From an uncultured Acidimicrobiales bacterium (lineage in GTDB: Bacteria > Actinomycetota > Acidimicrobiia > Acidimicrobiales > SZUA-35), in assembly GCA_937925335.1 (NCBI GenBank), contig CALEWY010000004.1, positions 1 to 64,000 of the forward strand: 64,000 bases of DNA. Direction: 5' to 3'. The position numbers were made by a program, and so were the translations under genes. The notes under the pieces were generated by a model. It saw nothing but the letters and a program-made list of their open reading frames with translations. It made no database searches and was not told where the DNA came from. This document shows positions 2,702 through 38,361 of the stretch, piece by piece (the first letter of the stretch is position 1; each line of letters begins with the position of its first letter).

Positions 2702-3496
<795 letters not shown>

Positions 3497-3594
3497 GTCC
3501 TGACCTTACGCGTCCCGCCTCCTCAGACCCGCGATCCGCCCGAGGGCGCGCCGTGGTTCAAGCGCCGTGGGGTCGCAGGCCTGAAGACCGGCCG

Positions 3595-4167
3595 TTATTG
3601 AACGGCGGGCTGACGGGCCATCGACATGGCGTGGCGCACGAGTCCAACGAGGGTGTCTCGAACGGCGGCCTTGTGACGAGCATCGGTGACGACGACGGGA
3701 ATGTGCGCTGGGATGTCCAGCGCTTCACGAACGTCTTCAGGGTGATGGCGAAGCACACCGTCGAAGGCGTTGATCGCCACGACGAAGGGCACTCCGGCCT
3801 GCTCCATGTAATCGACGGCCGGGAAACACGCCTCGAGGCGTCCGGTGTCGACGAGCACAACAGCACCGATGGCGCCGCGGACGAGCTCGTCCCACATGAA
3901 GTGGAAGCGGTCCTGACCCGGCGTACCAAAGAGGTACAACACGAGTTCGGAGCTGAGACCGACTCGACCAAAGTCCATAGCGACCGTGGTCGACTTCTTG
4001 GACGTGGCGTCGCCGAGATCATCGACCTCTTCAGAGGCCTTGGTCATGGCGGCTTCGGTCGTGAGCGGGTCAATGTCGGAGATCGCACCAACGAAGGTGC
4101 TCTTACCGACGGCGAATCCCCCAGCGACGACGATCTTGACTGGGATGGGGTTAGCAGCTGCGTTCAT
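3595..4167 (-). CDS. cvnD: Conservon small GTPase-like ATP/GTP-binding protein (CvnD type)
   Basis: A 190-residue Ras-like P-loop protein. G1 is GGFAVGKST (about residues 17-25), the Walker B/G3 region is LFGTPGQDRF, and the usual G4 NKxD is replaced by AINAFD, as in the actinobacterial conservon GTPases. It is the last gene of a four-gene conservon and starts 8 nt after the DUF742 stop. In Streptomyces the CvnA-D proteins form a membrane-associated signalling complex loosely comparable to a receptor with a G protein. The effector here is unknown. Confidence 0.88.
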   Translation of the reverse strand: MNAAANPIPVKIVVAGGFAVGKSTFVGAISDIDPLTTEAAMTKASEEVDDLGDATSKKSTTVAMDFGRVGLSSELVLYLFGTPGQDRFHFMWDELVRGAIGAVVLVDTGRLEACFPAVDYMEQAGVPFVVAINAFDGVLRHHPEDVREALDIPAHIPVVVTDARHKAAVRDTLVGLVRHAMSMARQPAVQ

Positions 4168-4175
4168 GATGACTC

Positions 4176-4538
4176 TCAGAGGGACTGCAGGCCGTCGAGC
4201 ACACGCTCGAGAAGCTGGAGGTCGGGTCGTTCGGTGGGCTGGGCCGTCGTATGTGTCGCGACATGACCCTCTTGCACGAGGTCGCCGAGCAGGATTCGGG
4301 CGACTTGGAGGTGGATCTTGAGGTGGGCCGAGATCTCAGCGACAGACTGTGGATTCGCACAGAGCGAAATGATCTGTTGCTGCTCACGACCGTGTTGCCC
4401 AGCTGAGGCATTACCACTCTCCGTTGTTCGGACGAGCGCCTCAAGAGGCAGATCCACGGAACTACGGGTTCGGCCACCAGTCAACAGGTAGGGCCGGACT
4501 CGAAGTGTTGTGAAACTTTCGTTGTCAGGTTCGGTCAT
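4176..4538 (-). CDS. cvnC: DUF742 protein (CvnC type)
   Basis: A 120-residue DUF742 protein. The start (TLRVRPYLLTGGRT) and the winged-helix-like segment ISLCANPQSVAEISAHLKIHLQVARILLGDLVQEGHV are family hallmarks. Conservon members have this small DNA-binding-like fold, but the protein is thought to work in the signalling complex. It lies between the Roadblock gene (64-nt gap) and the GTPase gene (8-nt gap). An atypical Q-rich insert (GREQQQ) sits before the core helix. Confidence 0.88.
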   Translation of the reverse strand: MTEPDNESFTTLRVRPYLLTGGRTRSSVDLPLEALVRTTESGNASAGQHGREQQQIISLCANPQSVAEISAHLKIHLQVARILLGDLVQEGHVATHTTAQPTERPDLQLLERVLDGLQSL

Positions 4539-4602
4539 CTTTTGCTCGCAGGCTTGGCGTTCTGGCGGTGGCTACCGGTTGGCAGCCACCCGGGTGAGCA
4601 GA

Positions 4603-5028
4603 TCAGTGTGCGGGGAGACTCGACTGGAGCTCTGCACGAAGTTCGGGGGTCAGCACCTGGCCGGTCTTCTCGACGAGGACGGCCATTTCGTAGGCGACGA
4701 GGCCCACGTCACAACCCGCGTCGGCCATCGTGGCCAGAAGCGAACCGTCGGAGATGCCGGTGACGAAGAGGAATGCGTTCTGCATCTCAACGATCACCTC
4801 GGAGACGGCGCCGCCTCCGAATCGACCGGCTGCGCCATAGGCGAGGCCGATCAGGCCGGACGACACCGCTGCGAAGCGATCGACCGAATCACGGTCGAGG
4901 CCTGACGATGCGGCGATTGGGAGGCCGTCGGACGAGACAACGACGGTCTCGTTCACTCCGGGCACTCGGTCAACGAAGTTGTTGACCAGCCAATTGACGT
5001 TGCTGGCTTGCGTGCTCATGACGCTCAT
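4603..5028 (-). CDS. cvnB: Roadblock/LC7 domain protein (CvnB type)
   Basis: A 141-residue Roadblock/LC7 protein (MglB-like fold). VNNFVDRVPGVNETVVVSSDGLPIA and the later ISDGSLLATMADAGCDVGLVAYEM are diagnostic. Such proteins dimerise and regulate the partner GTPase. The first ATG overlaps the kinase stop as ATGA (5025-5028), indicating translational coupling. A second ATG three codons in (5019) is an alternative start. Confidence 0.9.
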   Translation of the reverse strand: MSVMSTQASNVNWLVNNFVDRVPGVNETVVVSSDGLPIAASSGLDRDSVDRFAAVSSGLIGLAYGAAGRFGGGAVSEVIVEMQNAFLFVTGISDGSLLATMADAGCDVGLVAYEMAVLVEKTGQVLTPELRAELQSSLPAH

Positions 5029-7172
5029 GACGGGTCTCCCCAGGGGTTGCTTTCCTGGCCAGCTTGACCAGGATTGTTAAACGGATCGGATGGTGCGGCA
5101 TCAACCGCGTCGGTCGAGCTATCGGAGGCGAGCCCCTCGAGCGGTCGACCCTTCAGCCCGTCGCGGTAGCGAGCGAGCATGGAGCGAATTTCATCGGGCG
5201 AACGGACGCTGGCGGCGACGGGGCGCCCCTCAGAGACGGGAGCCTGTGACTTGGAACGGTCACGCTTGGCGAGACCCGTACCGGTGGTTCCTGCCTGCGG
5301 AGCGGTATCCGCTTCGAGCAGCGAGTCCATGCCGGTATCGAAGCTGTCACCCGTTGGGATGGCTTCTTCGAGTTTCGCAGGTGCGGCGCCGGGAGCGATG
5401 TGCTCTCGGGGCTCGCCACCATCGAAGTAGGGAGCTGTCCATGCTTCATCAGCACCTTGGCCAGGAGCATCCGTGCCGGCACCGAATGGTGCGTCGCCGA
5501 ATGCTGGAGCGTCGGTTGCCGGCGCATCGAAGCTTGGCGCATCGGCCATTCCAAGGTCAGCGGTCGGAGCGCCTTCACTACCGAGCAGCTTCGAGAGCGC
5601 TTCGGAGTTCTGAGGGGTTTCGTGGCCACCGGAGGACTGGCGGGTTGGCATGTCTGACGGGAGTGATGACGGAGCTGCCTCGGCAGCGGGAGCGCCACCG
5701 ATTGGGTTTGCGCCACGTTCCGGCATGACCGGAGGTGACCAGGCTTCGTCGTCGCCACCGGCGAGGGCGGCAGGAACATCAGTTGCAGGAGCTGGCGATC
5801 CACCACCGATCGGGTTGGCACCACGTTCCGGCATAACCGGCGGGGTCCACGCTTCTTCAGCGGCTGCAGGAGCCGGTGCAGGAGCGAATGGGTTTTCGTC
5901 GAGTGACGGTGCTGGCTGGTTCGCAACCGGAGCTGCGAGCGGTGAACCCATCGGGCTCGGCGCAGGTGCTTCCTCGATCGGAGCAGCGGCTTGGTTGCCA
6001 CCAAGGGCAGCCGGCATTGCGGCATCGGGCATGGTGCGAGCGATTGGGGCTGCATCGTCGGTGACCGACTGAGTAGCAGAACCGCCGGCAAGCACGGCGC
6101 CGGGGACATCGATGATGGCGGTAACGCCGCCACCGTGGGTGTGAACGAGTTCTACTCGAACGTCGAGACGCTGAGCGAGACGGCCGATCACCAAGAAGCC
6201 GAGTGAGCGGCTGAGTGACAGACCAAGCTCCGGAGGGTGAGCGATGAGCTGGTTGGCTGCACCGATCTGGTCGTCGCTCATTCCAATGCCGTGGTCGACA
6301 ATCGAAATCAGGTACGAACCGTCAGGATGGGTCGTGCCGCTGACTTCAACCGGCGAGTCTGGCGGCGAGAACTGGGTTGCGTTCTCCATGAGTTCGGAGA
6401 GCAGGTGGGCCAAGTCGACCGCACCGGAAGCACCGATTTCAGACTGCTCGATCTCGAGCAGCTGCACGTGGCGGTAGTCCTCGATCTCGGACATCGCCAC
6501 ACGAAGCACGTCGGCGACGGCGACGGGGCCACCACGACGGCGGCTCGACTCGGCACCGGCGAGAACCAAGAGGCTCTCGGCGTTGCGGCGCATACGGGTC
6601 GCAAGGTGGTCGAGCCCGAACAGCTCTTCGAGACGATCGGGGTCTTCTTCAGCCGACTCGAGACGATCGATGTATTCGATCTGACGGTCGAGCAGCGTCT
6701 GGTTGCGGCGAGCCATGTTGACGACGAGCTCGCTGAGACCCTGGCGCACCAGAGTCTGCTGCTCGGCCGCGACGTTCGTTGCTGAGTCCTGCACATCGTT
6801 GAGTGCTTCGGCGAGGCGACCAAGTTCGTCGCCGCCTTCGAACTCGATGGGCGGGAACGCAGGGGCGACGCCACCGGGGTTGCGCAGCGCCTCGACGAGG
6901 AGCGGCAACCGGTTGTCGGCAAGGTCACGTGTTGCGGCGGTGATGTCGTCAACCGGGTCGGCGATAGAGCGGACGACCAACACGCCAACAAGGGCGGTCA
7001 AGACAACTCCGGCGAGGGCGATGATGCCCAAGGTTCGGATGTCGCCTGTCAGGTCTTCCTGGGCGCCGCCCACGGAAAGGATCACCCCATAGATGGCGAC
7101 CGCCATGAGAACCACCATTGGTGGGACTGCCATGGCAATCAGTTTCGATCGGAGATTTAGTTTCTCGAACAT
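5025..7172 (-). CDS. cvnA: Conservon sensor histidine kinase with very short ectodomain (CvnA type)
   Basis: About 715 residues. Two membrane helices (about 11-34 and 48-69) are separated by only some 13 residues, so the large extracytoplasmic sensor domain of typical CvnA kinases is missing. A HAMP-like linker follows. Then comes a helical dimerisation region with GLDHLATRMRR (candidate phospho-His), and an HATPase domain with N-box SELMENATQFSPP and G-box VDHGIGM. The C-terminal 330 or so residues are a disordered Ala/Pro-rich tail with copies of the peptide PPVMPERGANPIGG. I chose the ATG at 7172 because it starts the usual FEKLNLRSKL segment; an ATG at 7214 would add 14 residues. It lies first in the operon and is divergent from the DUF4388 gene. 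Confidence 0.88.
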   Translation of the reverse strand: MFEKLNLRSKLIAMAVPPMVVLMAVAIYGVILSVGGAQEDLTGDIRTLGIIALAGVVLTALVGVLVVRSIADPVDDITAATRDLADNRLPLLVEALRNPGGVAPAFPPIEFEGGDELGRLAEALNDVQDSATNVAAEQQTLVRQGLSELVVNMARRNQTLLDRQIEYIDRLESAEEDPDRLEELFGLDHLATRMRRNAESLLVLAGAESSRRRGGPVAVADVLRVAMSEIEDYRHVQLLEIEQSEIGASGAVDLAHLLSELMENATQFSPPDSPVEVSGTTHPDGSYLISIVDHGIGMSDDQIGAANQLIAHPPELGLSLSRSLGFLVIGRLAQRLDVRVELVHTHGGGVTAIIDVPGAVLAGGSATQSVTDDAAPIARTMPDAAMPAALGGNQAAAPIEEAPAPSPMGSPLAAPVANQPAPSLDENPFAPAPAPAAAEEAWTPPVMPERGANPIGGGSPAPATDVPAALAGGDDEAWSPPVMPERGANPIGGAPAAEAAPSSLPSDMPTRQSSGGHETPQNSEALSKLLGSEGAPTADLGMADAPSFDAPATDAPAFGDAPFGAGTDAPGQGADEAWTAPYFDGGEPREHIAPGAAPAKLEEAIPTGDSFDTGMDSLLEADTAPQAGTTGTGLAKRDRSKSQAPVSEGRPVAASVRSPDEIRSMLARYRDGLKGRPLEGLASDSSTDAVDAAPSDPFNNPGQAGQESNPWGDPS

Positions 7173-7223
7173 TGGCCTCTCGCACGCCTCGGTAATCGGA
7201 CTCGGAAGTTCCATCGGCGGCTC

Positions 7224-7946
7224 GTGCCCGACCTTGAGGTACCGTTTCGAATCGTGCAGTCCGAAGATGCCCTCGCAGGGACGTTTGCTGACGTCCCATT
7301 TACCTCTCTCCTCGAAGCAATCGCCGCTAGTAGGCGTACTGGAGCGCTTCTGATCGGTGACGGAAGCGAGATCTATTTCGCTGACGGCCAGATCTATCTC
7401 GCGCGAAATTCTTCGAGTCCTGCTGTCGAATCTGTTCTTTTTGGAGCCGGAACGGCCACCCAGGATGAAATTGCGTCGTTGATGTCAACCCACGAGGGTT
7501 CGGTTGTCGATGAGCTCGCCGGTCGTTCCGACGATGCCGGCGACGTCCTCGATCGATTGCTGCACGAGTACAACCTCACGGCGCTCTTCGAATTGATCGT
7601 GCCGTCGACGAACGCGTTCGAGTTTGAGAACGGTCGCACCCACGCCATTGGCTCCCGCTTCGCGGAGCCGGTTGAAGAACTCGTCAGCCAGGCGCAGCGA
7701 CGGTTGGAAATCTGGAAAGAGATCGCCGCACGCATTCCGACGACCGACGTCGTGTTCCGACTCGCACACGAGCTGCCGTCGGGCAATGAGGAACGAATGG
7801 TTACCTCCGACGAGTGGCGCTACCTCGCCCTTCTCGATGGGCGCCGTTCAGTTGCCGACGTGATCACAACGACCGGTGAGAGCGCCTTCCGTGTCTGCTC
7901 GCTCTTCTACCGACTCCTTCTCGAAGAAGTCATCGTCGAGAAGTAG
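7224..7946 (+). CDS. DUF4388 (PATAN-type) domain protein
   Basis: A 240-residue soluble protein. Residues about 18-55 (GTFADVPFTSLLEAIAASRR then GALLIGDGSEIYFADGQI) fit DUF4388/PATAN, a domain common in proteins linked to two-component and small-GTPase signalling. The C-terminal 60 residues look like a winged-helix (WRYLALLDGRRSVADVI, then SALFYRLLLEE-like). It is transcribed divergently from the conservon with about 50 nt between starts, so a shared regulatory region is likely. GTG 7224 is taken as start; GTG 7254 is possible. I infer a role in the same pathway. Confidence 0.75.
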   Translation: MPDLEVPFRIVQSEDALAGTFADVPFTSLLEAIAASRRTGALLIGDGSEIYFADGQIYLARNSSSPAVESVLFGAGTATQDEIASLMSTHEGSVVDELAGRSDDAGDVLDRLLHEYNLTALFELIVPSTNAFEFENGRTHAIGSRFAEPVEELVSQAQRRLEIWKEIAARIPTTDVVFRLAHELPSGNEERMVTSDEWRYLALLDGRRSVADVITTTGESAFRVCSLFYRLLLEEVIVEK

Positions 7947-25152: not shown

Positions 25153-25200
25153 CTGCTGTCTCGAACCCCTGCCGTCTCGAACCCCTGCTGTCTCGAACCC
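25153..25200. repeat. 16-bp tandem repeat (x3)
   Basis: Three adjacent copies of CTGCTGTCTCGAACCC (25153-25168, 25169-25184, 25185-25200, the middle with one change), 24 nt past the YpfJ stop. They lead straight into the palindromic repeat region. Confidence 0.92.
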
Positions 25201-25208
25201 TCTGTGTC

Positions 25209-25263
25209 CTCTGAGACCACAGCAGGTTACGAACCCGCTGTGGTCTCAGAGACCGCAGCGGGT
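25209..25263. repeat. Palindromic intergenic repeat, cluster 1
   Basis: A 20-nt arm (25209-25228) pairs with 25232-25251 with one mismatch around a 3-nt spacer. An overlapping alternative hairpin pairs 25233-25246 with 25250-25263 around CAG. Both contain the 14-mer CTGYGGTCTCAGAG or its complement. The same 14-mer recurs at 25338-25351 and four times in the gap at 38083-38256. Confidence 0.85.
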
Positions 25264-25332
25264 CGCGCCGGCGGGCGCGTGCGGAAACAGTGGGGTTTTG
25301 GCGGTTTGTGCGGCTGACCAGCACGAACGCGA

Positions 25333-25363
25333 ACCGGCTGCGGTCTCAGAGGACGCAGCCGGT
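25333..25363 (-). terminator. Hairpin with the dispersed 14-mer, after the acyltransferase gene
   Basis: A perfect 10-bp stem (25333-25342 with 25354-25363) holds the repeat core CTGCGGTCTCAGAG across its left arm and loop. It lies 33 nt past the stop of the minus-strand acyltransferase and may end its transcript. No T-run is present. The gap 25130-25395 holds no gene that I can see. Confidence 0.5.
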
Positions 25364-25395
25364 AGCGGGACCGAGCGGTCCGGGTTTAGGTTTTG

Positions 25396-35478: not shown

Positions 35479-35958
35479 TCAGGAGTTGGCTGACTCGAGT
35501 TCGCCCGCAGCTTCGGCTGGCGCCTCGAGCGCACCCGAATCGATGGCGCCGAGCAGACGATCGACGAAGTCGGCGACGCTCTCATCCATCCGGTCTCGTC
35601 GAATCGACGCACCACCGATGACGTCGCCGCCACGGCGAGCAACCACGTTCGACAGCTTCTCGAGTGTCTTGCCCTTGTCGAGCGCATACGTGCAGTAGAC
35701 CGCCGCCTTCTTGCCGTCGATGACGGGAAGGTTGGCGAGACGAACGATGCCACCCGGCTTTTGGCCAAAGAGGAAGAGTCCGTCGGTCCACGAACCCACG
35801 ATGACGAGATCGGCCTCGCTCAGCTGCTGAAGAAGAATCTCCTTCGTCGAACAGGCGACCGTGTCGATCCCAGCCGCGGTGAGCTGATCAGCGATCATCT
35901 CGCCAGCCTTGCGGGTGTTGCCGGTCATCGACTCGTAGATCACGATGGCGCTCGTCAT
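35479..35958 (-). CDS. Flavodoxin-like protein
   Basis: A 159-residue flavodoxin-fold protein. IVIYESMTGNTRKAGEMIAD is the FMN phosphate-binding loop, and VIVGSWTDGLFLFGQKPGG contacts the flavin ring. It may serve as a one- or two-electron carrier, or be a flavin-reductase-like family member. A Ala/Glu-rich tail follows. ATG 35958 gives the canonical start. It is divergent from the SelW-type gene by about 103 nt. Confidence 0.85.
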   Translation of the reverse strand: MTSAIVIYESMTGNTRKAGEMIADQLTAAGIDTVACSTKEILLQQLSEADLVIVGSWTDGLFLFGQKPGGIVRLANLPVIDGKKAAVYCTYALDKGKTLEKLSNVVARRGGDVIGGASIRRDRMDESVADFVDRLLGAIDSGALEAPAEAAGELESANS

Positions 35959-36061: not shown

Positions 36062-36349
36062 ATGAGCGACCGACGATTCAAGATCTCCATCACCTACTGC
36101 GTGCCGTGAAACTATTCCGGTCACGCCGTGAGCGCGACGCAGGATTTGTTGTCCAACTACCAGCACGTGATCGATGATTTGGTTCTTGTCACAGGGTCAC
36201 GAGGTGTCTTCGATGTCGAGATCACCGAGGGTGATTCGGCTGCAACGATCTACTCGAAGGGCGAGACCGGCCGCCACGCAAACGAGGGAGAGGTTCTGGC
36301 GCTGTTCACCGAACACGTCGGGCCGAGCATCGCTCGTTACGGCACCTAA
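36062..36349 (+). CDS. SelW/Rdx-family selenoprotein with in-frame TGA (Sec16)
   Basis: A 95-residue thioredoxin-like Rdx (SelW/SelT/SelH) protein read through an in-frame TGA at 36107-36109. The start region reads KISITYCVPUNY, so the motif is CxxU (Cys13, Sec16) where the common actinobacterial form has CxPC. Downstream of the TGA the family pattern continues unbroken: GSRGVFDVEITEG, IYSKGETGRHANEGEV. Reading from the GTG at 36128 would leave a 73-residue fragment without the redox motif. Codon use is the same before and after the TGA. Expected role: a small selenium-dependent redox protein. It stands between the divergent flavodoxin-like gene and trmH (65 nt downstream). A pseudogene is the alternative, but only one TGA, at the catalytic position, is present. 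Confidence 0.85.
36116..36137 (+). promoter_or_regulatory. Candidate bacterial SECIS hairpin
   Basis: Directly after the in-frame TGA, TCAC (36121-36124) pairs with GTGA (36128-36131) around a GCC triloop. Flanking pairs (36118-36119 with 36133-36134, and 36116-36117 with 36136-36137) extend it with one mismatch and one bulge. The loop begins 15 nt after the TGA and its first base is G, near the range known for SelB-recognised elements. An outer CTGCGT (36097-36102) can pair with ACGCAG (36137-36142), enclosing the TGA but competing for base 36137. The fit is borderline and unproven. Confidence 0.45.
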
Positions 36350-36414: not shown

Positions 36415-37266
36415 GTGATCGACGGTTGGATCGCGGTGAACGATCCTGATGACAAGCGCATCGAAGTCTTCCAAGGTCTGCGCGACCACGTGTTGCGTCA
36501 GCGTCGGGAGAAGCCCGATGGTGACATGGCGGGTGTTTTCGTCGCCGAAGGCGATCTCGTTGTTGAGCGTGCGCTCGCAGCTGGCTACGAGCTGTCGTCG
36601 ATCCTCGTCGACGCAAAGCGCTCGCGCCCGATGCCCGATGCCATCGATCCCGACGTGCCGATCTATGCGGCCGGTCCCGATGTGCTCGTGCGCATCACGG
36701 GCTATCACCTGCATCGTGGGCTGCTTGCCGTGTTCCATCGGCGAGCCGTGCCTGAGCCGTCAGAGGTTCTCGACGCTGCCCGAACCGTCGTCGTCTGCGA
36801 GAACACCAACAACCCCACGAACCTCGGCGTCATCTTGCGTTGCGCAGCCGGACTCGGTGTCGATGCGTTCTTGATCGACCCCACCTGCAGCGACCCGCTC
36901 TACCGACGTGCCGGTCGAGTCTCCATGGGTGAGGCCTACGCCCTCCCCTACGCCCAGCTCCCCGCCTTCCCCGACGGGCTCGACGTCGTCCGCGATCACG
37001 GATTCAGGCTCCTCGCCCTCACCCCTGCGGCCGATGCTCTTGCCCTCCCGGAGCTCGTCCTCGATGCTGACGAAAAGGTCGCCATCTTGTTGGGCGCCGA
37101 GGGCCCGGGTCTGTCGGCCGGCGTCCTCGAGAGCATCGAACAGGGATCCGCCGCCGACCTTCGCATCAGCATCCCGATGAGTGGTGTCGTCGATTCCATC
37201 AACGTGGGTTCCGCCGCCGCCGTCGCGTTCTATGGCGTCCAGCAGGCTCGTCGGGTCAATCGCTAG
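36415..37266 (+). CDS. SpoU/TrmH-family RNA 2'-O-methyltransferase
   Basis: A 283-residue SPOUT methyltransferase. The N-terminal part (FVAEGDLVVERALAAGYELS) is the substrate-binding domain. NTNNPTNLGVILRCAAGLGVD is motif 1, AILLGAEGPGLS motif 2, and RISIPMSGVVDSINVGSAAA motif 3, forming the knotted SAM site. It methylates a ribose 2'-OH in tRNA or rRNA. GTG 36415 has AAGGA 5 nt before it, a good ribosome site. Its last 500 nt are opposite an open frame of the PNPOx-like gene. Confidence 0.92.
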   Translation: MIDGWIAVNDPDDKRIEVFQGLRDHVLRQRREKPDGDMAGVFVAEGDLVVERALAAGYELSSILVDAKRSRPMPDAIDPDVPIYAAGPDVLVRITGYHLHRGLLAVFHRRAVPEPSEVLDAARTVVVCENTNNPTNLGVILRCAAGLGVDAFLIDPTCSDPLYRRAGRVSMGEAYALPYAQLPAFPDGLDVVRDHGFRLLALTPAADALALPELVLDADEKVAILLGAEGPGLSAGVLESIEQGSAADLRISIPMSGVVDSINVGSAAAVAFYGVQQARRVNR

Positions 37267-38034: not shown

Positions 38035-38082
38035 ATCTGAAGGATCGACTCATTCACGCCGCGACTTGAGCGAAGCCACTGA

Positions 38083-38256
38083 CTGCGGTCTCTGAGACGA
38101 CAGCCACCCTCGAACCCACTGCGGTCTCAGAGATCGCATTCGGTCTGTGAAAAGAAAATCCACTGATAAAGGGGTTTCCAGCCGAACGGCGAACGATCGG
38201 CACCCGCTGCGGTCTCAGAGATGACAGAGGGTTCGCGACCTGCTGTGGTCTCAGAG
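38083..38256. repeat. Dispersed palindromic 14-mer, cluster 2 (four copies)
   Basis: Copies of CTGYGGTCTCWGAG at 38083-38096 (variant), 38119-38132, 38207-38220 and 38243-38256, each flanked by GAACCC or ACCCG-type sequence. They fill much of the gap 38035-38361 between the PNPOx-like gene and the acyl-CoA synthetase. The same core occurs three times at 25209-25363. No gene is evident in this gap. Confidence 0.85.
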
Positions 38257-38361
38257 GAAACAGCTGCTTCGAGGTGATGGACGGCAGCTGATTGTGGGTG
38301 TCTGCGGACCATCGAGGCCGGTCGACTTGAGCGACGCGGAACTGACGGGCAGTCTTGGCGG

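Follow-up and report, generated by a model that had tools for sequence, protein, structure and literature searches.

A SelW-like gene with an in-frame TGA predicted to encode selenocysteine in an Acidimicrobiia-type actinobacterium

The window analyzed here, a 64,000-nt stretch of DNA from an uncultured Acidimicrobiales bacterium, holds a reading frame for a SelW-like protein (Rdx family) that is interrupted by a TGA, which raises the question of whether this codon marks a broken gene, ends a shorter one or is read as selenocysteine (Sec). The frame begins at ATG 36062 and closes with the TAA at 36347-36349, and its sole internal stop is the TGA at codon 16. Re-reading the sequence confirmed the preliminary description, which had placed this single TGA at 36107, in the second position of a CxxC motif. 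The read-through translation is MSDRRFKISITYCVPUNYSGHAVSATQDLLSNYQHVIDDLVLVTGSRGVFDVEITEGDSAATIYSKGETGRHANEGEVLALFTEHVGPSIARYGT. As had also been claimed, the list of open reading frames under the standard code gives only the short fragment from GTG 36128 to 36349; standard-code calling leaves 73 residues, from which the active site is missing, and the corrected gene model is given in Table 1. The CxxU motif by itself was dropped as evidence, since 34 CxxU or UxxC contexts (at least 50 open codons after the TGA and at least 8 before it) arise in the whole window, a number not above chance. The gene at 36062 stands out from these chance contexts because homology flanks its TGA on both sides.

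Table 1. Features of the SelW-like locus, in window coordinates
Feature	Coordinates	Strand	Remarks
SelW-like (Rdx family) selenoprotein gene, predicted	36062..36349	+	95 residues through TGA, then TAA; based on profiles and TGA-bearing homologues
In-frame TGA, predicted selenocysteine	36107..36109	+	residue 16, second position of CVPU; TGA at CxxU in 64/64 loci
Predicted bacterial SECIS hairpin	36121..36137	+	stem 36121-36126 / 36132-36137; loop CGUGA 36127-36131
Standard-code open reading frame, 73 aa	36128..36349	+	starts at GTG 36128, inside the predicted SECIS loop; judged an artefact
Flavodoxin-domain gene, divergent neighbour	35479..35958	-	Pfam Flavodoxin_3, 1.2e-7; kept beside the Rdx gene
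SpoU/TrmH-family RNA methyltransferase gene, co-directional, downstream	36415..37266	+	Pfam PF00588, 2.3e-27; conserved adjacency

The read-through protein matched the Rdx profile of Pfam (PF10262) with 51.7 bits (cut-off 22.6, 1e-13) and the CXXU_selWTH profile of NCBIfam (TIGR02174) with 37.7 bits (cut-off 34.2). Both matches span residues 7-8 to 80-81, on either side of the TGA. The score against NF041051, the SelTWH_Campy equivalog of the same family, was 58.7 bits, below its cut-off of 88, so the protein is a relative of this subgroup and not a member. In an AlphaFold2 model built with 15 homologues (pLDDT 92.7), CVPU (residues 13-16) directly follows the first strand (residues 6-12), as in a thioredoxin-like fold. 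A fold search of the PDB returned only SelW-like proteins among its 21 best matches (E < 0.001), the best with an E of about 1e-5 and a TM of 0.7-0.85; they come from SAV_2001 of Streptomyces and relatives in Pseudomonas, Agrobacterium, Bordetella and Vibrio, and a sequence search recovered the same entries weakly. Profiles and predicted fold agree in bearing out the SelW/Rdx membership originally proposed. The best matches by sequence and fold, SAV_2001 of Streptomyces avermitilis (3dex), 2oka, 2obk, 2fa8, 2ojl and 2p0g, share about 20-25% identity with the window protein, and we take these solved bacterial proteins to carry Cys instead of Sec. Mouse SelW (2npb), a CxxU selenoprotein of the same fold class, matches the fold less closely (E 0.018, TM about 0.6), and Sec insertion in animals, in contrast, uses another type of SECIS located in the 3' untranslated region.

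A homologue is present in 75 of the 198 genomes of the class (own genome counted), and every match listed holds the TGA. At all 64 loci that were read out, 60 of them distinct, the TGA occupies the CxxU position, and 14 further TGA-bearing loci were found in metagenome-assembled genomes (MAGs) titled Acidimicrobiales, Acidimicrobiia or Actinomycetota. No Cys form was found among the homologue matches from the 198 class genomes and the MAG loci; the query carried Cys, so that a Cys form was expected to match at least equally well. The in-frame UGA is conserved and aligned with the catalytic Cys/Sec position, and the first strand and the CxxU site are among the most conserved residues. Frame disruptions elsewhere in the gene of close relatives had been named as a sign of a pseudogene; the relatives instead show no disruption beyond the same TGA and, in the two-TGA cases that were read out, the normal terminator, except for two distant homologues (G094 and G046), which additionally count a TAG or TAA. 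A second in-frame TGA in small-genome relatives was considered as a second Sec codon, but wherever the locus was read out this TGA simply terminates the gene, and the idea was rejected.

A covarying predicted SECIS follows the TGA and fits the published bacterial model. The stem-loop comprises bases 15-31 counted from the TGA, and five of its six stem positions pair in the window copy, with an A-C mismatch at 36123/36135. According to a review, the bacterial SECIS has a loop of 3-9 nt, an upper stem of 4-16 bp, a G in the first two loop positions and a UGA-to-loop distance of 16-37 nt (PMC13188914). Compared with this model for loop, stem, G position and spacing, the window hairpin has a loop of 5, a stem of 6 with one mismatch, a spacing of 17 nt and a G second in the loop, followed by U. 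The stem pairs form in 84-100% of cases among 55 distinct sequences, and at positions 17-27 C-G and U-A are exchanged between third codon positions of Arg and first positions of later codons. In 16 chosen sequences, 92.7% of cells were paired and slid versions dropped to 14-54%; these sequences contain 16 double-sided compensatory cells, a count that none of 500 shuffles reached. Likewise, 92.1% of positions were paired in 19 automatically thinned sequences, as high as in none of 2000 synonymous-codon randomizations, although such controls remove shared ancestry only in part. The window copy by itself has 5 pairs against 2.2 expected, a number reached by 0.7% of its synonymous versions. The folding energy of the lone window hairpin was uninformative as evidence, as 28% of synonymous versions were as low.

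The preliminary description had predicted that the organism carries selA, selB, selC and selD. In its own draft genome (4.4 Mb, 150 contigs, 82% complete), we found a tRNA-Sec (C41:3722-3813; 70 bits, cut-off 47) with the anticodon TCA (UCA), and selA (407 bits) and selB (271 bits) on the same contig, with frames that overlap by 4 nt. The three components that mark a Sec-decoding organism are present together, and the absence of machinery that had been named as grounds for rejection was not encountered. No selD was found in this 82% complete draft: the sole profile candidate, a 20-bit hit in a longer protein, was rejected because its level equals that of an unrelated second match in most relatives. 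When 20 genomes were searched, selD was found in 17/17 Rdx-bearing relatives (in 14 cases the selD frame itself contains a TGA) and in 0/2 Rdx-free ones, and we therefore attribute the missing gene to incompleteness; selD probably lies in the unassembled part of the genome. Among genomes at least 90% complete, selA is present in 44/44 of those with Rdx and in 51/92 of those without (Fisher p 3e-9, ignoring phylogeny), and completeness is below 80% in each of the six Rdx genomes that lack a convincing selA. In addition, the same genome has an alpha-type formate dehydrogenase frame (C98:9312-11180) with a single TGA, whose context, CNRTUHAPSV, recurs unchanged in four relatives. This putative second Sec codon supports Sec decoding in the organism independently of the Rdx gene.

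As a separate observation, the Sec-type formate dehydrogenase catalytic subunit in this genome lacks the N-terminal [4Fe-4S] domain (locus L094 = G000:C98:6000-18000, oriented 3259-5202 and 6835-7818). The missing domain (model positions 1-50) is found instead at the end of another gene, which lies downstream and encodes a ferredoxin-type subunit. This split and the reversed gene order are the same in five genomes (L094, L095-L098).

These results bear on three other ways of reading the TGA. A former Cys-type Rdx gene could have become a pseudogene through a recent TGC/TGT-to-TGA nonsense mutation, or the TGA could be a sequencing error, and the codon is indeed one base away from the Cys codons. 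However, the same TGA occurs class-wide in homologues of 33-76% identity in which downstream residues such as YSK-x-ETGRH are conserved, and the hairpin covaries; the presence of the TGA in independent genomes in practice already refutes a pseudogene, which we regard as extremely improbable. It is just as hard to credit that translation truly starts at GTG 36128 and gives the 73-residue protein: although this is the frame listed under the standard code, such a product has neither the CxxU active site nor the first strand, both among the most conserved residues and, with a match from residue 7, within the Rdx profile, and its GTG sits in the SECIS loop.

The TGA might also be read as Trp or Cys, either by general reassignment of the code or by readthrough of another kind. 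A Cys would suit the motif as well, and nothing else was found in favour of such a reading; against it, TGA terminates the same Rdx gene in many relatives (e.g. L022-L028) as well as the FdhA frame in the own genome, and TGA is hence not generally reassigned. With the hairpin, tRNA-Sec, selA and selB all pointing to Sec, there is next to no chance that Trp or Cys is inserted. Taken together, the conserved TGA, the covarying SECIS, the tRNA-Sec, selA and selB argue for the selenocysteine coding that was first proposed: judged from sequence, the gene is almost certainly intact and encodes a SelW-like selenoprotein with a thioredoxin fold.

In the mechanism that we propose, SelA would make Sec on its tRNA from selenophosphate, which would require SelD. 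When the ribosome meets the UGA at codon 16, SelB carrying Sec-tRNA(UCA) would bind the hairpin within the 28 nt that follow on this mRNA, and selenocysteine would presumably be inserted in place of termination. In the product, the loop that follows the first strand would carry the pair Cys13-x-x-Sec16, whose selenolate would, by analogy, be the attacking group, with Cys13 resolving the mixed bond. The SelW-like family comprises small redox proteins of the thiol/selenol type whose substrates are unsettled.

Many bacteria are already known to have proteins of this kind. Like the known bacterial SelW-like selenoproteins (PF10262 Rdx), it has a CxxU with Sec second, a SECIS just past the UGA and a length in the range of about 80-100 residues; it differs from them only in coming from Acidimicrobiia-type actinobacteria. 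A 2006 study reported SelW-like selenoproteins in bacteria, some of them assigned to Actinobacteria at the time, and saw few if any Cys homologues where organisms use Sec (PMC1794560); in the Global Ocean Sampling data, no other selenoprotein family was as numerous (PMC2398784). They are also listed among prokaryotic selenoproteins (PMC1794560, PMC2398784, PMC9312934, PMC13188914). Our literature search found no paper describing selenoproteins, SelW-like included, in this class. The present analysis puts on record, across the class, the use of Sec and a predicted SelW-like selenoprotein whose SECIS is clean and covaries.

Genomes of about 1 Mb (family f22, genus g41) keep selA, selD and the Sec-type SelW-like gene, and their formate dehydrogenase matches are weak and without TGA. 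We tentatively suggest, with somewhat less than even confidence, that SelW-like proteins are strictly selenium-dependent in the class and that, in these genomes, where a Sec formate dehydrogenase seems to be missing, the entire Sec pathway may be retained on account of a small set of proteins that includes SelW and SelD. An obligate Sec form retained in streamlined genomes would give a handle on why SelW depends on selenium.

The order of divergent flavodoxin gene, Rdx gene and TrmH-type methylase gene is kept in 9 of the 14 MAG loci. This hints that the Rdx and methylase genes form a shared unit, possibly one transcript; as a pointer to the substrate of the SelW-like protein, the neighbourhood is only suggestive. 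In L022 and L023, the Rdx terminator is a TGA and the TrmH-type methylase begins a few bases on in the same frame, so that readthrough would yield a fusion, whereas the Rdx gene of the window stops at TAA and its methylase neighbour lies in another frame. Elsewhere in the window, interspersed intergenic repeats of about 36-38 nt with the palindromic core CTGYGGTCTCAGAG occur at 25194-25367 and 38073-38268.
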